Source: a virus. Taken from it: a stretch of DNA of 23,780 nucleotides. How positions within the stretch are numbered: position 1 is the first letter of the stretch; every line of letters begins with the position of its first letter. A program made the position numbers and the translations under genes. Of this stretch, positions 716 to 23,751 are shown one piece after another. Below the pieces are notes generated by a model. It did not search any database, was not told the DNA's origin, and saw only the letters and a list, made by a program, of their open reading frames with translations. The stretch covers positions 1 to 23,780 of IMG/VR virus record IMGVR_UViG_3300032053_000525; one strand, written 5' to 3'.

Positions 716-1315
716 TCACACCTCAGCGATTGGCAGTTCATGGGGCGAGACGATCCGCAAGGTTCCCCGGCCGGAAGGGATAAGGACGAGTTCGGTGCGG
801 CGGCCGATGACGCCGACTTGGAGAGGTTTGACAGGACGATTATCGAGCGCAATCGCCTCCAAGCGGCGGGCGAAGTAGTGGCACTCGCACTTGGTCTTCT
901 GGGTCAGCGTGTTGTCATAGCCGAAGTCGAACCACGGCGGCGGCATCGACTCGTAGACCCGGCGGCTGGCGCGGAAACAGCCACAGCCGAAGGTTCCGTA
1001 GTGGCCTGGCGTGCCATAACGGCCGAAGTAGCCGCAGTAGACGACCTCGCCCGGCTCGGCCAGGACGCGGACCGTCTCGCCCTGGATGGGCACAAGCGCC
1101 GAGTCGATCATCACGAGGTGGTCTTTGTCCGTGTCCTCGGCCAGGAACCGATTGACGACCTGGTTCCGCGCCACGTACACCGGGTGCGTCTCCGCCCCGT
1201 ACCGCCACGCGTAGCCGCGCAGGCGCAGGGCGTTCAGCCAGGCCTGGAGGTGCCGGTTCGGCTCCTCGCGGTAGGCCATCACGACGATCTGGACGTTCGC
1301 CGGTTCGATTGGCAT
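716..1315 (-). CDS. Glycosyltransferase-like phage protein (copy 1)
   Basis: A protein of about 199 residues that looks like a small GT-A-fold glycosyltransferase. The N-terminus (NVQIVVMAYREEP) is a typical Rossmann-like beta strand. An ARNQVVNRFL segment and a MIDSAL segment in the place of a metal-binding DxD follow. The signature FRASRRVYESMPPPWFDFGY is shared with the protein encoded at 8987-9514, so the two are paralogues. I chose the ATG at 1315, which overlaps the stop of the fibre gene as TGATG; an ATG at 1330 is the alternative. It is the last gene of the late operon and lies next to the fibre gene, so it may glycosylate virion or host-surface components. Donor and acceptor are unknown. 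The DxD position is IDSAL here, so activity is not certain. Its C-terminal 35 residues do not resemble those of the paralogue. Confidence 0.6.
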   Translation of the reverse strand: MPIEPANVQIVVMAYREEPNRHLQAWLNALRLRGYAWRYGAETHPVYVARNQVVNRFLAEDTDKDHLVMIDSALVPIQGETVRVLAEPGEVVYCGYFGRYGTPGHYGTFGCGCFRASRRVYESMPPPWFDFGYDNTLTQKTKCECHYFARRLEAIALDNRPVKPLQVGVIGRRTELVLIPSGRGTLRIVSPHELPIAEV

Positions 1316-3339
1316 CAGATCGGCACCCATCCCGCCCCGTTATGCACGTGGGTCACGCGGCCGAAGCCGTCGGTCTTGATCCCGCAGAGCGTGCCGGTGT
1401 ACGACTTCACGCCCGATGTGTCGATGGCGAACGCGCCGTTGTCGAACTTGAGGCCCGTCCCCACCTTGCCCTCGATGCCGTTCGAATTGACCTGGAGGCC
1501 GCAGGTCGTGTTGACCTTCGCCCGAAGGGCACCCGACGAGAACTCCAGGCCCACGTCGATCTTCACCTTGACGCCGCTGCCGTCGACCTCGAGCCCCGAG
1601 TCGGTGTCGGGCTTGACGCGCAGGCGTCCGTCCTCGCCGCTTGAGTCGAACTCAAGGCCGGGATCCTCGGCTAGGTCCACGTGGACCGAGTTGTCCTCGA
1701 CCTCCAGGCCCCGCCCCGCCGCCACCTTGACGCCATCGACGCTCACGTCGAGGCCCGAGCCGCCGGAACCGGTGGGGGCGAGTTTGAGGCGAAGGCCGTC
1801 CGGGTCATGCTCCAGGCCTCCCGAGCCGTCGAGTTTCACGGCCAAGCCGCCGCCGGCGCCGAACTCAAGGCCCTTGTCGGCCTCCAGCACCGCCCGGATG
1901 CCATCGGCGGCTACGTCGATGCCGCGAGCCGTGTCGGGCTTGGCCTCCAGTTTCCCGCCCGCGCCGTAGGCCAGGCCCTTGTCGGTGTCGGCCTCGACGG
2001 CCACGCCCTGGGCCGAGACACTCACGGCCTTGGTGGCGTCGGGCTTGACGGCCAGGTTCCCGGCCCCGTCGAACTCAAGGCCACCCGCGTCGCCGGTCTT
2101 TGCGCGCACGCCGTCGACCGTGACGTCGATGCCGCGCGACGTGTCGGCCACGACGCCGACGCCCTGGACGGTCACGTCGATGGCCCGCGCGCCGTCCGGC
2201 TCGACCTCGATGTTGCCGCTCGCGTCGAACCGCAGGCCCTTGGCGCCGTCGTCGATCTTCGCCTCGACGCCGTTGGCCGTGACGGTGATGCCGCGATCCT
2301 CGTTGGCCTTGACCATCAGCCGGCCGGCGTCGGTCTCGGCGTCGAACTTGAGGCCGGGCTTCGTGGCCTCCAGTTCCACGTGAAGTTTGCGGTCATACGG
2401 CACCGGGTCTTCGAGCGCAAGACCCTTGCCGGCTGTGACCTCCCACGACGGCAGCGCCGCCTCGGGGCCGACGAACGGCACCACCTCACCGTCGTAGACC
2501 TCGCCGCCCGAGTCGGGGATCTCCTCCCAGTAATCGCCGGCCACCCACCCGATGAAGTCACCGGCGGCGATGCCGCGATAGCCGATGGGGGCGTTCTTGC
2601 CGCGCGGACCGGTGACCTTGATGAAGAGGTCGTCCGACTCCTCGTCCACCCATGACTTGTCGAGGAAGGCAAACTTGCCGCTGACGAACGTGATGTACCC
2701 GTCGGCCTCGAAGCCACCCCATGCGGCGCCCCACGCCTTCCAGACGCCCGTGACCTTGAGGCCGTGGATGGTGACCTCGTGCATCGCCGGCGCGACGTTC
2801 GAGACCCGCACGAGGGCCCACTTCTCGCCCGTCCCGTCCTCCCGCCAGAGAACCTGGGCCGCGCCCCGGCCCGTGAGCCGCAGGTGCTGACACTCCTCGC
2901 CCTCGTCCGTGCAGACGTCGGCGTATTCAAGGCCCTCTTCGCCCTCGTCCACGCGGACCTTGACGGGCGTCATGCCCTGAACGAGCGCACGGCCGATGGC
3001 GCCGCCCTTGAGGGGCTCGAGGAGGATGGCGAAGTTGCCGACGTGGTCCGAGTCGGGCTTCGCGCCCTTGAGGGCCCAGCGGAACTTGAAGCCCTCCTCG
3101 TTGTCGGCGGGCGTGTAGACGGGGCCGTCGAGCGCCACGATCTCAAACAGGCCCCGGTCTTCGCCCGTAGTGTTCTTGACGAGGACGACGCCAGCGGGGC
3201 GGACCTCGGCCAGGGGATCGCCGCCGGCGCCCTGGCGGCGCTCCAGGTAATCACGCGCAGCGTCGATGAAGGTGTTGAACGTCTGTGCCGGTATCCGCAG
3301 CGGCTGGCCCGGCTGCACCTTCTTCAAGGGGTCGCCCAT
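1315..3339 (-). CDS. Long tail fibre/tail-tip protein with shaft repeats
   Basis: A 674-residue protein in two parts. Residues 1-290 form a globular-looking N-terminal region (DPLKKVQPGQPLRIPAQTF at the start), probably the attachment to the tail tip. Residues about 303-640 are roughly 19 imperfect repeats of 14-20 residues, of the form GLxFDxxGxLxVKxD alternating with GIxVxxxGVxAKxD. This resembles the triple beta-spiral shaft of adenovirus and reovirus fibres, where the conserved Gly and the alternating hydrophobics build a trimeric shaft. The last ~34 residues (ending NGAGWVPI) are a small tip. The repeats are protein-level and are not exact DNA copies. It follows the tape measure and a tail-tip candidate, as expected for a fibre. 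Receptor binding is inferred. The start is ATG at 3339; the in-frame sequence just upstream contains no better start. Confidence 0.75.
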   Translation of the reverse strand: MGDPLKKVQPGQPLRIPAQTFNTFIDAARDYLERRQGAGGDPLAEVRPAGVVLVKNTTGEDRGLFEIVALDGPVYTPADNEEGFKFRWALKGAKPDSDHVGNFAILLEPLKGGAIGRALVQGMTPVKVRVDEGEEGLEYADVCTDEGEECQHLRLTGRGAAQVLWREDGTGEKWALVRVSNVAPAMHEVTIHGLKVTGVWKAWGAAWGGFEADGYITFVSGKFAFLDKSWVDEESDDLFIKVTGPRGKNAPIGYRGIAAGDFIGWVAGDYWEEIPDSGGEVYDGEVVPFVGPEAALPSWEVTAGKGLALEDPVPYDRKLHVELEATKPGLKFDAETDAGRLMVKANEDRGITVTANGVEAKIDDGAKGLRFDASGNIEVEPDGARAIDVTVQGVGVVADTSRGIDVTVDGVRAKTGDAGGLEFDGAGNLAVKPDATKAVSVSAQGVAVEADTDKGLAYGAGGKLEAKPDTARGIDVAADGIRAVLEADKGLEFGAGGGLAVKLDGSGGLEHDPDGLRLKLAPTGSGGSGLDVSVDGVKVAAGRGLEVEDNSVHVDLAEDPGLEFDSSGEDGRLRVKPDTDSGLEVDGSGVKVKIDVGLEFSSGALRAKVNTTCGLQVNSNGIEGKVGTGLKFDNGAFAIDTSGVKSYTGTLCGIKTDGFGRVTHVHNGAGWVPI

Positions 3340-15665: not shown

Positions 15666-15848
15666 TCATCGGATGGGCTTTTCCGAGGTGGTAATGCGTT
15701 TCCCGCAGTTCCGGCACTCCCGTCGGCGAAGCAGTCTTCCGCCGACGGCCCGCCGGGTATAGATGACGAAGAAGTGCCTGCAGCCGCAGTCGCGGCACTC
15801 CAGGCCCTTTGATTCCTGAGGTTTCTGCGTGGTAGGCAGATCGGTCAC
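15666..15848 (-). CDS. Small Cys4 zinc-ribbon protein
   Basis: 60 residues. CRDCGCRHFFVIYTRR followed by RRRECRNCGKRITTSEKP gives a CxxC...CxxC zinc ribbon much like the N-terminal ribbon of NrdR, the ribonucleotide-reductase repressor, without its ATP-cone. It could bind DNA or assist packaging. It begins with GTG 15848, which overlaps the terminase TAG stop as TAGTG, preceded by a GGAG Shine-Dalgarno sequence. The larger frame to 16010 is a shadow of the terminase. The 144 bases that follow, up to the next gene, hold nothing I recognise. Confidence 0.6.
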   Translation of the reverse strand: MTDLPTTQKPQESKGLECRDCGCRHFFVIYTRRAVGGRLLRRRECRNCGKRITTSEKPIR

Positions 15849-18121
15849 TATCTGCTCCGTTGAAGGTCCGACAGCTTCAGCCGTTTCCTCGGCGGCCCCT
15901 GGCCCCCGCCTGTGGCGAAGAGGACCGCCCCCTGAATCGACGCCGCCACGGCACAGCCCACGAGGCAGTCCAGCCAATGGTTGTCGGCCTTGCCGACGCG
16001 GGCCTTCCACTCGTCCACCGTGCGGCCGCGCCCCTCGGTCTTCACGCGGTATTCAGCCGTCAGGTGGTCGGCCAGGAGCCGGTGGGCCTCGGCCGAGCGG
16101 CCGAAGAGCGACAGACACCCCTTGTCGCCCATCGGCACGGCCATGCGGGCGTGCACGAACGACTTCCAGTAGTTGGTGTCGAGAAGCGCGTGCCGCACGG
16201 CCCGGCGGCCGTGGACGTTCGGAATCCGCCAATGATGCCCGACGCGGTCGCCGGCCTTGCGCTTGTACTCCGAGAACGGGATGCTCGACGCCCCGACGTA
16301 CTTGCCGTGGCTCGGCAGAAGGACGGCGGCGTGGGCCGACTGGCGGCAGAACTGGTACACCACGTCGGTCGATTCTCCCCAGTTGGCGTCCACCAGGCAC
16401 CGCTCGATTCGCAGGACCGCCCCGTCGTCCCGCCGCCATTCGCGGGCAAGGTAATCGCCCGTCAGCGCCTCGAGGCCCGCGTAGATGGCCCCCTCGATGC
16501 CCGCCTTCCGCGCCGCCGAGGCCAGCGTCAGCCGCGCGTCCCGCAGCGTGAAATACGGCCGCTTCTGGTCAGGGTATGTCCCGTAGTCCACGACGTAGCC
16601 GGTAAAGTCGTCCTCCCATGCCGCCACCAGGTAGAAGAGGAGTTCCTTCTGGATGTCGACGAACATGGTGATGTGGTTCGCGCCGACGGGGATATCGCCC
16701 CGACGGATGCCGTTGATCTTGGCGGCCACCGCCTCGGCCGCGAGCATCTCGCCGTCGCCCTCGTCGGCAGGCAGGGGTTCGTTCTGGTACTCTGCCCAGA
16801 ACGCCGCCTCGTCCTGGAGGCGCAGGTTCATCGCGTGCTGGATGGCCGACAGTTCGTCGCCGTTGAACCGCTCCGGCCAGGCCACCAGCGCCCCGGCGTC
16901 CATCTCCACGCGGTGTTGACGGTAGAACTCGGTGGCCTCGACGATGCCGCGGTTGTTGCGCAGGCTTTCGGCTCGAATCTGGGCGTAGCGCGCCCACAAC
17001 TTCTCGTTCGTGGGGAACGCATAGACCATCTTCGTGCGTTCGCCCTGCCACTGGGGGTGCTTGTCGCGATTGAGGATACGGTCGGCCACGTCGTCGGGCC
17101 GGATGACGGTGCACGGCATGACGCCGGCGATCTTGCGGCCCGGCCCGGCCAGACCGAGGATCGCCCCGGCCAGAATGGCCTCGCGCGTCGCGCACTGCGA
17201 GGGCGACCGTGCCGATTCGTCCGTCTGCGGGTCGTCGAGGATCACCAGCGACGGCCGCATGGAACGGCCGTCGGACCGCTTGAACTTCATCCCCCGGATG
17301 CGGCCCGTGATTCCGGCCACGCGGATGATGGCCCCGCTGGCCGGGCTGCCCTCGATAGTCGGGAGGACGATCTCCCGCGCGGTCCAGCTGATGTAGGTCC
17401 GCTCGCCGCGACAGGTCTGCCCGGCGCAGCGGTTGGCGATGCCCTCCAGGCACCGGATGGGGTACACCACCTCCGGAGAATCCTCGAGCAGCCGCTCGTT
17501 GGTCTCGAGTTCCGTCTTGATGGAATCAAGCATCGACTCGGCGTGCCCCTCGTCGCTGCCGATAAGCGCCACGAACTCCCGGGCGCCGATGAGCATCGCC
17601 CAGATGCAGGCCGACTCCGCGAGGACGGTCTTGCCGCTGCCGCGCGGCATGGCGTAGGCGTAGAGGCCGCCCCGCAGCACGGCATCCTCGATGCGGGCAA
17701 CGGCTTTCAGGTGATCCTGCGACCAAGCGAGGTAGAACGTGTGGGGGAAGTATGTCTCGCAGAAGAACCGGAAATCCGTCATGGCCCGGGCCTTCCGCGC
17801 GGGATCGGCTACGGGTGGGATGTCACCGATGTCCCGACCTGCCGCCGAGAGCGCGGCGTTCCGCGCCCGGGCCTGCTCCTTCATGGCCTCGTAGCCCGTC
17901 AGGCCCCTGGCGGCCTGGACGTTGGTGGCCGTCGCGTACCAGGTGCATACGAGCCACGCGGCGTAGGCGAGGGCGTTGACGCGCGTCGAGTCGCCCACAC
18001 GCAGGCCGGCCCGGACGATGTTGCGGCGCACGCGGGCCTCGCTGGTCACCTCGCCCAGGGGCGTCGAGTTCAGGAGGCCCGCCAGTTGCCCCGGGCGCAT
18101 CTGCCGAAGGTCGATGCTCAT
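15848..18121 (-). CDS. terL: Large terminase subunit
   Basis: 757 residues from ATG 18121. An ATPase half carries Walker A MPRGSGKT (158-165) and Walker B LVILDD (292-297). A C-terminal nuclease half has an RNase H-like triad of acidic residues: FVDIQKELL (Asp489), CLVDANWG (Asp578) and DNHWLDC (Asp718). The enzyme cuts concatemeric DNA and pumps it into the prohead through the portal. The N-terminal 130 residues are an extra helical region. It overlaps the upstream small gene as ATGA and the downstream Zn-ribbon gene as TAGTG. The longer frame to 18172 adds only shadow residues. Confidence 0.9.
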   Translation of the reverse strand: MSIDLRQMRPGQLAGLLNSTPLGEVTSEARVRRNIVRAGLRVGDSTRVNALAYAAWLVCTWYATATNVQAARGLTGYEAMKEQARARNAALSAAGRDIGDIPPVADPARKARAMTDFRFFCETYFPHTFYLAWSQDHLKAVARIEDAVLRGGLYAYAMPRGSGKTVLAESACIWAMLIGAREFVALIGSDEGHAESMLDSIKTELETNERLLEDSPEVVYPIRCLEGIANRCAGQTCRGERTYISWTAREIVLPTIEGSPASGAIIRVAGITGRIRGMKFKRSDGRSMRPSLVILDDPQTDESARSPSQCATREAILAGAILGLAGPGRKIAGVMPCTVIRPDDVADRILNRDKHPQWQGERTKMVYAFPTNEKLWARYAQIRAESLRNNRGIVEATEFYRQHRVEMDAGALVAWPERFNGDELSAIQHAMNLRLQDEAAFWAEYQNEPLPADEGDGEMLAAEAVAAKINGIRRGDIPVGANHITMFVDIQKELLFYLVAAWEDDFTGYVVDYGTYPDQKRPYFTLRDARLTLASAARKAGIEGAIYAGLEALTGDYLAREWRRDDGAVLRIERCLVDANWGESTDVVYQFCRQSAHAAVLLPSHGKYVGASSIPFSEYKRKAGDRVGHHWRIPNVHGRRAVRHALLDTNYWKSFVHARMAVPMGDKGCLSLFGRSAEAHRLLADHLTAEYRVKTEGRGRTVDEWKARVGKADNHWLDCLVGCAVAASIQGAVLFATGGGQGPPRKRLKLSDLQRSR

Positions 18122-18375
18122 GCCTGCCTGTCCATTGGGCGGGTTCCGCCCGCCACGTCCCGTTCCAGCCACGCTGCGAGCGCCACGAGGTTCACGCGGC
18201 CGTCCGGCAGCGCCGGCGCGCCCCGGTCGATGGCCATTTGAAGCATGGCCGCCGTCACCAGTCTGCCGCCGGCGGCGGTCAGCAGCCTGGCCGCGTCGGC
18301 CAAGGTCAGGGCGACCGGGTTCATGCCTGCCCGCTGCGGCGGCGCGTCTTCGAATCCCGCCTGGTCATCGGTCAT
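18118..18375 (-). CDS. Small HTH-like protein, possible small terminase
   Basis: 85 residues. The segment LTLADAARLLTAAGGRLVTA followed by AAMLQMAIDRGAPALPDG has the size and helix pattern of a small winged helix-turn-helix. It is the first gene of the late operon and directly precedes terL, as terS does, so it may select DNA for packaging. I chose ATG 18375 with GGGGAAAG upstream; the frame extends to 18402. The small size is low for a terS (usually 100-180 residues), so it could also be an excisionase-like or regulatory protein. Confidence 0.5.
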   Translation of the reverse strand: MTDDQAGFEDAPPQRAGMNPVALTLADAARLLTAAGGRLVTAAMLQMAIDRGAPALPDGRVNLVALAAWLERDVAGGTRPMDRQA

Positions 18376-20235: not shown

Positions 20236-20616
20236 GTGATCACCACGAAGCAAGCCGAGATGATCCTGCCGACCATGCGGGCCGCCGTTGCCGCCCTGCA
20301 CGAGGTCTGGGAGAAGTGCCGCGAGGTCGAGCGGGCCCTCGGGCGCGACCTGGATGGCCTGGAAGGCATCGTCCAGGACATGGCGGCGGGCGTAGACCAC
20401 CCCGAGTCGGTGGACGTGGACTACGTCCGCGACGCCCTCAACGCCCAACTGGACGACGAGGTCATCGAGGGCAGCCAGTGCCCCGCCTGCGGCGAGCGGC
20501 GGGTCGACTACCTGGTGTGGCAGAAGGACCAGAAACACGTGAAGTGCACCACCTGCGGCAAGCGGTACGCGCCGCCCACGAAGCCCGCCCAAGGCGGGTT
20601 CGCCTCGGGCGAATAG
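20236..20616 (+). CDS. Small zinc-ribbon hypothetical protein
   Basis: 126 residues. Helical first part, then CPACGERR and CTTCGKRY form a CxxC...CxxC zinc ribbon (about residues 83-110). It starts with GTG 20236 after GGAAGGAGG. The C-terminus (TKPAQGGFASGE) is encoded by two tandem hairpins (20584-20613), likely a short inserted repeat. It may bind nucleic acid; function unknown. Confidence 0.6.
   Translation: MITTKQAEMILPTMRAAVAALHEVWEKCREVERALGRDLDGLEGIVQDMAAGVDHPESVDVDYVRDALNAQLDDEVIEGSQCPACGERRVDYLVWQKDQKHVKCTTCGKRYAPPTKPAQGGFASGE
20584..20613. repeat. Tandem hairpins at the end of the zinc-ribbon gene
   Basis: CCCGCC/GGCGGG (loop CAA) and TTCGCC/GGCGAA (loop TCG) follow each other within the last codons, ending next to the TAG. 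The base content resembles the palindromic repeats at 7829 and 10311. Inserted repeat or coding accident. Confidence 0.4.
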
Positions 20617-20625
20617 GAGGTCGTC

Positions 20626-21522
20626 ATGCTGACGCTGAAGCAAAGGCAAGAGCGGGCCGCACGTCGCGCCGCGCGGATCGCGGCGAAGCACGAGGCCATC
20701 CGGCAAGCGGCCCTGGAACACGGTGCAGCACAGAGCGAAGGGAGCACGGTCATGAAGAAGAACGAGGTGAAGGTCGGCGGCCAGTACGTCGCCAAAGTGT
20801 CGGGCAGGTTGGCCCAGGTCCGTATCGACCGCGAGAATCCGCACGGCGGGTGGGACGCGACGAACCTGGCCACGAGGAAGGCCGTCCGCATCAAGAGTGC
20901 CCAGCGGCTTCGGGCGCCGGCCGGACTGACCCAGGCCGAGGTCAAGGCTGCCAAGGCCGCGGTGGGCGCCCAGGTTGGCGCGGGGGCCAAACCGGCCGCC
21001 GAGTCGGCCAAGGATACCAAGGCCCCGCCCGCGGCCGCCGGGAGCGAGACCACCAACCCCCTCGAGGCCCACTACCGGGGGCAGAAGGACGCCGCGAAGG
21101 CGGAGAAGGCCGCCAAGGTCGCTGCGTGGCGCAAGGAGGTCGCCGCCAAGACCTCCAAGCCCGACCCCGAACTCGACAAGGCCATCAAGGACGCCGACGC
21201 CAAGGGCCGCCAGAGGAAGGCCAAGGCGAAGGCCGAGAGGAAGCCCGGCTGCCTCGACGCCGCGGTCCGCGTCCTCCGGGAGGCCGGTAAGCCCATGGGT
21301 TGCCAGGACATCGTCAAGGAAGCCTTGGCGAAGGGGTACTGGCAGACGAAGGGCGCGACGCCCGGGGCCACCTTGTACGCCGCGATCATCCGCGAGTGCG
21401 CCGCCAAGGGCGCGAAGGCCCGGTTCCGCCGCGCCGAGGTCAAGGAAACGAAGGACGGCAAGGCGGTCACCCTGCGCGGCTACTTCACACTGGCCGACGA
21501 GCACGCAGGCAAGAAGCAGTAG
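20626..21522 (+). CDS. HARE-HTH domain protein
   Basis: 298 residues. Residues 1-40 are a basic helix. Then NEVKVGGQYVAKVSGRLAQV forms a small beta domain. A Lys/Ala/Pro-rich linker covers about residues 105-200. The last part (CLDAAVRVLREAGKPMGCQD, ATPGATLYAAIIRECAAKG) is a winged helix of the HARE-HTH type (PF05066-like), a DNA-binding module linked in its family to restriction or modification enzymes and chromatin proteins. It starts with ATG 20626 after GGAGG, but a second start at 20752 (MKKNEVKVGG) has its own AAGGGAG, so a shorter protein without the basic helix may also be made. It ends two bases before the stop of the convergent Mom-like gene. Confidence 0.65.
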   Translation: MLTLKQRQERAARRAARIAAKHEAIRQAALEHGAAQSEGSTVMKKNEVKVGGQYVAKVSGRLAQVRIDRENPHGGWDATNLATRKAVRIKSAQRLRAPAGLTQAEVKAAKAAVGAQVGAGAKPAAESAKDTKAPPAAAGSETTNPLEAHYRGQKDAAKAEKAAKVAAWRKEVAAKTSKPDPELDKAIKDADAKGRQRKAKAKAERKPGCLDAAVRVLREAGKPMGCQDIVKEALAKGYWQTKGATPGATLYAAIIRECAAKGAKARFRRAEVKETKDGKAVTLRGYFTLADEHAGKKQ

Positions 21523-21524
21523 CA

Positions 21525-22334
21525 TCAGCCCACCTCCATGTCACGCCCGGGCGCGTCCTGCCTGGGCGTGTCTTCGGCCTCTACCTGGGCGAAAAGTGGA
21601 GCGGCGTCGTGGAACTGCCCCACGCCCTGGAACCTGGGAGGTTCCCGGCTCTCTCTTGAGCCCTCCGCCGCTCTCGTTTCGCCGCCGCACTCCAGCGTCC
21701 AGACACAGTCATCCTTCTTCGGGTAGTCCTGGCCCCACGGGAAGGGCGACTCCCGCAGCAGCCGCTTCCGCACCGCATGGCCGCACAGAAAGTGGCAGTA
21801 CCGGAACTGCCGGCCCCGCACGCGCCTAAGGCCCACGCTCCGCGTGAACGCCCGGTCCCGCCGACCGCAGCGCGTGATGACCTGCCGGGGATGCACGACC
21901 TCGTACTCGGCCGTGACGTAGAACTCGGTGCGGATGTAGCCGCCGTAAAGCCAGTTGTCGGCCTGGTAGACGTAGCCGGGCTTGCCGCGCATGCCGTCGG
22001 CCCAGGTGAAGAGGACCACGCGCCGTGGATCGTGGCTGGCGATGTACTCCCGGCAGAGCCTCAGGAACTGGCTCTCGCCGTTCCTGGGCTCGGAGTCCAG
22101 CATGCACAGGCGGTTCAACTCGTAGTAGTCGCCCGTGCCGAGGCTTGGGAAGAGCCGCTGGATGGTGTGGCGCGGCCGCACGCCGAAGCCCCAGGACGCC
22201 ACGCCCACCAGATCCCCGCCCTTGAAGCACCCCAACGACAGCAGGCAGTGCGGCGGCACGCGGACGGCGTAGTGGTGGGCCGCGACGAATGAGGCCATCA
22301 ACGACCGGGGGATGGGTTCGACGTGGTACGCCAT
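21525..22334 (-). CDS. Mom-like DNA-modification protein
   Basis: 269 residues. The segments YYELNRLCMLDSEPRNGESQ (residues 70-89), TWADGMRGKPG (110-120) and YVYQADNWLYGG (121-132) match my memory of the phage Mu Mom family, a GNAT-like fold that converts adenine in DNA to N6-methylcarbamoyl-adenine and protects phage DNA from restriction. Conserved His/Tyr near the start (HHYAVRVPP) and a cysteine- and basic-rich part follow; the last ~60 residues look disordered. It starts with ATG 22334, overlapping the methyltransferase stop as TGATG, so the two are made in coupled fashion. The frame to 22850 upstream is a shadow of the methyltransferase. The Mom call was not checked by a search. Confidence 0.6.
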   Translation of the reverse strand: MAYHVEPIPRSLMASFVAAHHYAVRVPPHCLLSLGCFKGGDLVGVASWGFGVRPRHTIQRLFPSLGTGDYYELNRLCMLDSEPRNGESQFLRLCREYIASHDPRRVVLFTWADGMRGKPGYVYQADNWLYGGYIRTEFYVTAEYEVVHPRQVITRCGRRDRAFTRSVGLRRVRGRQFRYCHFLCGHAVRKRLLRESPFPWGQDYPKKDDCVWTLECGGETRAAEGSRESREPPRFQGVGQFHDAAPLFAQVEAEDTPRQDAPGRDMEVG

Positions 22335-23647
22335 CAGACCGCCTCCCGCTCGGCTTTCTTGCCCGTGAACTGCTCCCATCGCTGGACGATGACGTCCGAG
22401 TACAGGGCGTCGAGTTCCATCAAGTACGCGCGGCGCCCCGTTTTCTCGCAGCCGATCAGCGTGGAGCCGGAGCCGCCGAAGAGGTCCAGGACGTTCTCGC
22501 CCGGCCGCGACGAGTACTCGATGGCCCGCACGGCCAGTTCCACGGGCTTCTCGGTCAAGTGAATCATGCTGGCGGGGTTGACCTTCTTGATGGACCACAC
22601 GTCGGTTGCGTTCGGAGGCCCGAAGAACTCGTGACCAGCCCCCTCGCGCCAGCCGTAGAAACACCACTCGTGGTTGCCCATGAAGTCCTTGCGGGTGAGG
22701 ACCGGGTGTTCCTTCACCCAGATGACGGCCTGCGAGAAGTAGAGTTCGCAGGCCTTCAGGACCGGCGGGTAGTTCCCGCAGTTGGCGTACCCACCCCAGA
22801 TGTAGAAGCAGCGGCCCGGCACCAGCACCCGCGCGATGTTGCCGAACCACGCCCGCAGCATGCGGTCGAAGTCCTCGTCGGAGACGAAGTCGTTGGCCAG
22901 CGGACGATCCTTGGGGCGGAGTTTCTCGGTCGTGGCGTGCTTCGCGCCCTGGCGGGCCACGTCGAAGGACTGGTGGTGCATCAGGCCGTGGTGGGCGTCG
23001 GCAGCGGGGAAGGAGGACAGGCCTGCGGCGATGGCGTTGTTGCTCCTCGGCTCGACCCGGACGTTGTACGGTGGGTCGGTGTTGACCAAGTGGACGGCGG
23101 CCCCGGCCAGCAGACGGTCCACATCGGCGGCGCTGGCGGAGTCACCGCAGAGCAGCCGGTGCTGGCCGAGGATCCACAGGTCGCCCGGCTGCGTGATGGC
23201 CGCGTCACCCGGCAGGGGCACGGCGTCTTCGTCGGTCAGGCCCTCGTTGCCCGGCGGGGCGAGCAGTGCCCCGAGGTCCTCCTGCGAGAACCCGAGGAGC
23301 GACAGGTCGAAGTCCATGCCCGCCAGGTCCTTCAGTTCCAGCGGCAGGAGGTCGTAGTTCCACTCCGCGAGCGTGGCCGTCTGGTTGTCGGCCAGGCGGT
23401 AGGCCTTCACCTGCGCTGGGGTCAGGTCCGTGGCCACATGGACCGGCACCTGCTTCAAGCCCAGTTTCTGGGCGGCCTTCCACCGCGTGTGCCCCACGAT
23501 GATGACGCCGTCTGGGTCCACCACGATGGGTTGGCGGAAGCCGAACTCCCGCAGGCTCTTGGCGACCGCCTCGACCGCCTGGTCGTTCAGGCGGGGGTTC
23601 TGATCGTAAGGCCGGATGGCCTCGATGCTTCGCAGTTCAACCTTCAC
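22334..23647 (-). CDS. ParB-like domain/DNA methyltransferase fusion
   Basis: 437 residues from GTG 23647. Residues 1-100 are a ParB/sulfiredoxin-like domain (RPYDQNPRLNDQAVEAVAKS, then GHTRWKAA and YRLADN). Residues 160-437 are a methyltransferase: DPPY (191-194) comes before FGGSGST (390-396), the beta-class order of N6-adenine or N4-cytosine enzymes. A specificity region lies between them (NDFVSDEDFDRMLRAWFGNI and others). The frame continues to ATG 23746, but those 33 codons cross an inverted repeat and look non-coding, so I prefer the GTG. Coupled to the Mom-like gene, it probably belongs to an anti-restriction or modification cassette. Confidence 0.75.
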   Translation of the reverse strand: MKVELRSIEAIRPYDQNPRLNDQAVEAVAKSLREFGFRQPIVVDPDGVIIVGHTRWKAAQKLGLKQVPVHVATDLTPAQVKAYRLADNQTATLAEWNYDLLPLELKDLAGMDFDLSLLGFSQEDLGALLAPPGNEGLTDEDAVPLPGDAAITQPGDLWILGQHRLLCGDSASAADVDRLLAGAAVHLVNTDPPYNVRVEPRSNNAIAAGLSSFPAADAHHGLMHHQSFDVARQGAKHATTEKLRPKDRPLANDFVSDEDFDRMLRAWFGNIARVLVPGRCFYIWGGYANCGNYPPVLKACELYFSQAVIWVKEHPVLTRKDFMGNHEWCFYGWREGAGHEFFGPPNATDVWSIKKVNPASMIHLTEKPVELAVRAIEYSSRPGENVLDLFGGSGSTLIGCEKTGRRAYLMELDALYSDVIVQRWEQFTGKKAEREAV

Positions 23648-23679
23648 GTTCTTCTGGGTGCATGACCGTAGTTGCAGTG

Positions 23680-23751
23680 CCTGATTGGCCGATGAAGGAT
23701 GGTAGGACGTGCCGAGGCCCGTGGGAGGCGGGTCTGGAACGGCCAATCAGG
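23680..23751. promoter_or_regulatory. 12-bp inverted repeat in the divergent gap
   Basis: CCTGATTGGCCG (23680-23691) is the exact reverse complement of 23740-23751, 48 bases apart. It lies between the divergent starts of the methyltransferase (23647) and the plus-strand gene (23762). Two operator half-sites for autoregulation by looping, or a recombination site, are possible. Confidence 0.4.

Follow-up and report, generated by a model that had tools for sequence, protein, structure and literature searches.

A Mom family gene overlapping a ParB-domain DNA methyltransferase gene in a putative modular DNA-modification locus of a probable tailed phage

Genes and features of the locus

The window, that is, the whole stretch of DNA that was analysed, is a complete IMG/VR virus record of 23,780 bases (69% GC) that is classed as linear and is probably a fragment. 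The genes encoding a ParB-domain-fused DNA methyltransferase (MTase) and a Mom family protein lie upstream of the late genes on the same strand, with the terminase gene downstream of the pair and a HARE-HTH gene convergent with it (Table 1). The virus is probably a tailed phage of Planctomycetota; this host is inferred from the metagenome-assembled genome (MAG) contigs and prophages of its relatives, not from those of the virus itself.

Table 1. Positions of the locus features and late genes in the window.
Feature	Coordinates	Strand	Evidence or remark
ParB-domain-fused beta-class DNA MTase, 437 aa, GTG start	22334..23647	-	PF02195, PF01555, phrog_498
MTase/Mom junction: GGGAGG Shine-Dalgarno-like motif and TGATG stop/start overlap	22332..22348	-	
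Mom family protein, 269 aa, ATG start	21525..22334	-	PF25680, Mu Mom match, AlphaFold2 model
HARE-HTH protein, 298 aa, convergent	20626..21522	+	PF05066 1.8e-11
Terminase large subunit, gpA endonuclease type	15848..18172	-	PF20454 1.6e-23; phrog_38 1.8e-35
Lambda-type portal	15321-13852	-	late gene
Capsid protease/major head protein	13877-11847	-	late gene
Major tail protein	8692-8246	-	late gene

The reading frame of the MTase (METHYLTRANSFERASE) is open from 23746 (TTG), and conservation starts at the GTG codon listed in Table 1, where M1 is present in at least 90% of the rows of a 47-row alignment; the upper edge of 23751 given in the first-pass annotation thus overshoots the gene by about 100 bp. 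The same annotation had described the enzyme as a ParB-fused beta-class MTase, and this description is borne out by matches to the ParB_N domain (PF02195, 9.5e-10), the N6_N4 MTase domain (PF01555, 2.1e-24) and phrog_498 (1.5e-125), as well as by conserved motifs and a CcrM-like fold. The motifs follow the beta-class order, that is, DPPY (residues 191-194), HLTEKP (363-368; motif X) and FGGSGST (390-396); DPPY and FGGSGST are invariant across 47 relatives, and in the ParB_N GxxR signature G52 and H53 are invariant and T54 and R55 are conserved in at least 90% of the 47 rows. The window enzyme shares this order (IV ... X-I, with DPPY) with the CcrM/RsrI-type beta-class N6-adenine MTases, from which it differs in its additional N-terminal ParB domain. 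When the model of the MTase was searched with Foldseek, the best match was CcrM (6pbd, E 1.1e-12), and the N-terminal part resembled Noc and ParB structures. N6-adenine enzymes are the best fold matches, and N6 of adenine is the likely target, with N4 of cytosine as a possible alternative because N4-cytosine MTases were also matched. The dN/dS values of the MTase (0.09-0.37) indicate purifying selection. In three contigs (L011, L012 and L019), all with an intact Mom gene, the MTase gene has an in-frame TAG at the same position, which may be decay, a sequencing artefact shared by the three or readthrough.

The second protein contains the ELNRL, WADG and YQADNW segments from which it had been called Mom-like, and its membership of the Mom family is, on profile and model evidence, solid. 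It matches Pfam PF25680 with 2.9e-40 (138.5 bits; the curated cut-off is 27.1) and the PHROG family annotated 'Mom-like DNA modification protein' (phrog_1384) with 2e-36; tblastn finds Mu Mom with 33% identity over about 206 residues (E 7e-16), and the sole solved structure matched by the sequence is 8bv8, 'Methylcarbamoylase mom' (E 9e-19). The comparison with Mom/GNAT structures called for by the first-pass annotation gave the same answer: an AlphaFold2 model (48 homologues; pLDDT 82.9, with residues 243-269 at the C-terminus of low confidence) has Mu Mom (8bv8) as its best PDB match (E 2.8e-14, TM 0.79 by target length), and GNAT acyltransferases rank next. The possibility that the Mom label was wishful is ruled out by these profile, BLAST, solved-structure and fold searches. 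S88 aligns with S124 of Mu Mom, whose S124A variant is called inactive in a PDB title, and is conserved in at least 90% of the 48 homologues; 29 residues, including S88 and D113 (Mu D149), are invariant across the first aligned Mom set. Purifying selection is again indicated (dN/dS 0.11-0.24). By analogy with Mu, the predicted reaction is carbamoylmethylation.

Mu Mom and the window protein have the GNAT-like fold in common (8bv8, PF25680), and both genes are found among late phage genes and overlap the gene upstream. That upstream partner is com in Mu, whereas in the window the position of com is occupied by the ParB-MTase; the window Mom is thereby coupled to a phage-encoded MTase, in contrast to the host MTase in Mu, and it also carries a C-terminal extension of about 60 residues. 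In jumbo phages, where Mom family enzymes likewise serve as phage DNA-modification genes, Mom usually forms a fusion with a domain of restriction-endonuclease fold (PMC7824862); the window Mom differs from these fusions as a stand-alone, MTase-coupled gene with no nuclease domain seen. No nuclease domain was found in the MTase, Mom or HARE proteins or in the other scanned ORFs of the window, and no restriction gene was found among the scanned genes of this record, which is a fragment.

At the junction (GGGAGGCGGTCTGATGG) the stop codon of the MTase gene (TGA) and the start codon of the Mom gene (ATG) have one base in common, as the first reading of the sequence had recorded (TGATG), and the GGGAGG motif is located 7 nt ahead of the Mom ATG.

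Several other features of the window were recorded. The plus-strand block at about 18.4-21.5 kb contains mostly unknown genes together with the HARE gene and, directly before it (20236-20616, +), a gene for a small zinc-ribbon protein. At the contig end (23763-23780, +), an ATG preceded by AGGAGG is oriented away from the MTase gene, and a divergent gene probably starts there. A likely tail-fibre protein is encoded at 1315-3339 (-). Its repeats are matched by the adenovirus fibre model of Pfam (PF06536, 2.8e-13) and, weakly, by the shaft model, and probably form triple beta-spirals in a fibre of the phage. An Rfam scan of the window gave no matches.

Distribution of the Mom-MTase pair

Scans with Mom identified 15 viral contigs and six Planctomycetota MAG contigs with Mom proteins of 73-94% identity, and scanning with the MTase added two more loci (L030 and L034). 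When identical viruses are taken once, the MTase gene is beside the Mom gene on the same strand in 17 non-redundant viruses, the window included, although such relatives are not independent samples; three further loci are cut at contig ends. The co-occurrence across genomes that had been suggested as a check on the pair is therefore observed. In two Mom loci (L015 and L021) no MTase was found in the available sequence; in L021, Mom and the terminase are separated by a gene for a group II intron-type reverse transcriptase with an HNH domain (L021:1836-4123).

The usual order is MTase then Mom, and it is reversed (Mom then MTase) in L006, L008, L010 and L020. The 1-nt overlap occurs in the window and in L002, a 4-nt overlap occurs in L009, L120 and the reversed-order set, and in the other loci the two genes are spaced. 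On the MTase tree, the presence of Mom and the gene order require five changes, with L016 and L120 located outside the group of the window. Mom proteins of 82-87% identity are found next to MTases of ~70% identity or terminases of 45-62% identity (e.g., Mom 87% and MTase 70% in L008); in L005 the MTase and Mom are 88-89% identical and the terminase is 51% identical. The parts have thus moved between phages independently of one another.

Among 48 more distant Mom-bearing virus records, an N6_N4 MTase (PF01555) is present anywhere in seven and adjoins Mom in one (L120, in which Mom is 54% identical and has an ATGA overlap with the MTase gene). No MTase gene was found next to mom in the annotated Melnitz, Aeromonas, Edwardsiella, Psychrobacter and Mu regions examined. 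An adjacency rate of 1/48 rules out the pair as a general phage feature. From the other side, Mom is found in seven of the best 80 MTase loci (of 486 relatives).

Mom genes in Planctomycetota genomes have related arrangements. In L223 (5009-6579), next to a tape-measure gene, Mom has a 4-nt overlap with an MTase that has no ParB domain; L221 (4830-6399) has the same pair without the overlap; and in L225 (4646-6076) and L226 (4382-5828) a stand-alone ParB-like gene is located directly upstream of a distant Mom, followed by a terminase gene. The pairing of MTase and Mom is more than chance, given the purifying selection on both genes and the recurrence of the pair in related viruses.

A HARE-HTH neighbour and an interchangeable slot

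The HARE-HTH gene, which was absent from the first-pass annotation, is the near-constant partner of the MTase. We surveyed the best 80 of the 486 MTase relatives (L028-L107), of which 66 had enough sequence to be tested for HARE; in 63 of these 66 loci a HARE-HTH gene lies before the terminase gene and converges on the MTase gene from the other strand. The domain is conserved in a 33-row alignment, which rules out matches from Lys/Ala-rich stretches alone, and part of the family has a conserved N-terminal segment (KKxxVKVGGxYxAKVSG...GGWDATN). In the window, the stop codon of the HARE gene is 2 nt from that of Mom, and its frame has a GC3 of 0.91 and a dN/dS of 0.25. A 1019-aa ORF antisense to it (21525-18466) was rejected as a gene and is interpreted as a shadow, since its GC pattern mirrors the HARE frame and its dN/dS is unconstrained. 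In other loci, long plus-strand ORFs beginning at the stop codon of the MTase were also considered as genes; the rejection is established for the window ORF.

The association extends to bacterial genomes: the MTase is found in 25 of 199 Planctomycetota genomes (E 1e-60 or better), in some cases inside chromosome-size contigs. In 17 such regions that were examined, a HARE match is near the MTase in 12 (convergent in 11, one of them weak, L272) and no Mom was found; HARE and the MTase occur together in these Planctomycetota prophages. The HARE-MTase association is thus stronger than the Mom-MTase association. HARE-HTH domains are predicted to recognise modified bases (PMC10853773, PMC11037411).

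The stop codons of the MTase and HARE genes may be as close as 2 nt (L060) or 8 nt (L047, L081 and L082). In the window group Mom sits in the slot between them, and in other loci (L036, L037, L045, L053, L054, L058, L064, L067, L033, L038, L030 and L094) the slot is occupied by other genes. In a cluster of six loci these are DUF1937/nucleoside deoxyribosyltransferase-like genes, which by ORF scan start at the MTase stop (Pfam confirms three of the six). L053/L054 have a dATP/dGTP diphosphohydrolase-like gene, L033 and L038 have weakly radical-SAM-like genes, and L030 and L094 have an antisense Fic gene. Mom is therefore exchangeable cargo in the MTase-HARE slot, and the choice of cargo looks non-random because several of the cargo genes are nucleotide- or DNA-modification-like.

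ParB-fused phage MTases have been described before, and the term 'ParB-Tls locus' has been used for MTases and other DNA-modification genes located between a ParB gene and the gene for the terminase large subunit (cited in PMC6536676). The window has this layout, with the MTase, Mom and terminase genes in order on the minus strand (Table 1). The MTases of the ParB-Tls locus and phrog_498 resemble the window enzyme in their N-terminal ParB domain, their position upstream of the terminase and the additional modification genes alongside; what sets the window apart is that the coupled gene is Mom and that the convergent HARE-HTH gene is a constant neighbour. The literature searched, with subscription journals outside its coverage, yielded no earlier description of a Mom/ParB-MTase pair, and neither the constant HARE-HTH neighbour nor the cargo slot was found in the accessible literature searched. 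Mom, ParB-MTases and the ParB-Tls locus are thus known, and the Mom/ParB-MTase overlap, the HARE neighbour and the slot are apparently new.

Proposed function of the locus

Starting from what was observed, namely the identities of the genes, their overlap and conservation, the selection on them, their recurrence and the behaviour of the slot, we consider it probable that this is a modular ParB-terminase DNA-modification locus of a tailed phage that provides two parallel modifications against restriction. A single late transcript would carry the MTase and Mom genes; the HARE gene would be outside this transcript because it is on the opposite strand. Within a specific motif, the MTase would methylate an exocyclic amino group, probably N6 of adenine. 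Mom, with its own ribosome-binding site, would be made by termination-reinitiation at the TGATG and would add a bulky group (carbamoylmethyl, by analogy with Mu) to other adenines. Before packaging, progeny DNA would receive the two modifications in parallel, which would protect it from different host restriction enzymes. The probable role of the ParB domain is to load the MTase onto phage DNA or to keep it there, and that of the convergent HARE-HTH protein is to bind or read DNA that carries modifications and to adjust the process. The chemistry, the parallel action, the timing and the roles of the ParB and HARE domains are proposed from what is described for Mu Mom and the ParB-Tls locus.

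Base composition provides a hint of restriction. The observed/expected ratio of AGCT is 0.14 in the window, 0.36 in the Mom group (0.06-0.66 in individual loci) and 0.89 in high-GC relatives without Mom; for GATC the ratios are 0.66, 0.61 and 0.97, respectively. This scarcity, strong for AGCT and mild for GATC, may reflect restriction faced by these viruses, with host lineage as an alternative cause.

A variant of this proposal assigns a larger role to HARE: the ParB-MTase and Mom would set two marks, and the HARE-HTH protein would read one of them, so as to tell modified phage DNA apart and control packaging or late expression, with MTase and HARE as the constant core of the locus and the slot gene, either Mom or a different enzyme of modification or nucleotide metabolism, setting the second mark. 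To this arrangement of two writers and a reader we assign a low probability.

It is unlikely, in our judgement, that the two genes have no functional link, that is, that the 3' end of the MTase gene, ahead of the terminase, is a hot spot for insertions, with Mom as one of many passengers. The variety of genes in the slot, from deoxyribosyltransferase-like and diphosphohydrolase-like genes to an antisense Fic gene, would be expected from a hot spot, as would the single adjacent MTase among the 48 other Mom-bearing records; however, this explanation is weakened because coupling is seen repeatedly, with either gene first and with MTases that are unrelated. The overlaps occur in two MTase lineages, Mom is coupled to the unrelated MTase of L223 and found beside the ParB genes of L225 and L226, and the modification-like character of several cargo genes also argues against a mere passenger.

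We assign a lower probability still, and consider it quite improbable, that the MTase serves to regulate Mom, with methylation controlling transcription of the operon or reserving sites for Mom. The precedent is Mu, in which mom is controlled by the host Dam (PMC10434257); co-transcription would allow feedback, and the adjoining HARE protein is a predicted reader of modified DNA. However, regulation of Mom is not the main job of the MTase and HARE because both are conserved in loci without Mom, and the 133 bp upstream of the MTase gene, where the contig ends, contain no GATC, which need not be the motif of the MTase.

Serial action on one adenine, the two-step cassette proposed in the first-pass annotation, in which the MTase would make N6-methyladenine and Mom would extend it, is very unlikely: the tight translational coupling, in both gene orders, and the probable preference of both enzymes for exocyclic amino groups of DNA bases would fit, but most Mom homologues have no adjacent MTase, among them Mu Mom, which shares the conserved residues, most MTase relatives have no Mom (e.g., L033 retains the MTase with no Mom in the slot), and because each enzyme mostly occurs without the other nearby, neither needs the other.

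The preferred reading, parallel modification by a modular locus, places Mom, known mainly from Mu and scattered other phages, in a compact operon with its own MTase, and shows a predicted modified-DNA reader to be almost always adjacent to a ParB-MTase that is widespread in phages. Two questions thereby become testable: do phages combine several kinds of base modification to counter different restriction enzymes, and what do HARE-HTH domains bind? The slot between the MTase and HARE genes may serve as a guide to further DNA-modification enzymes.
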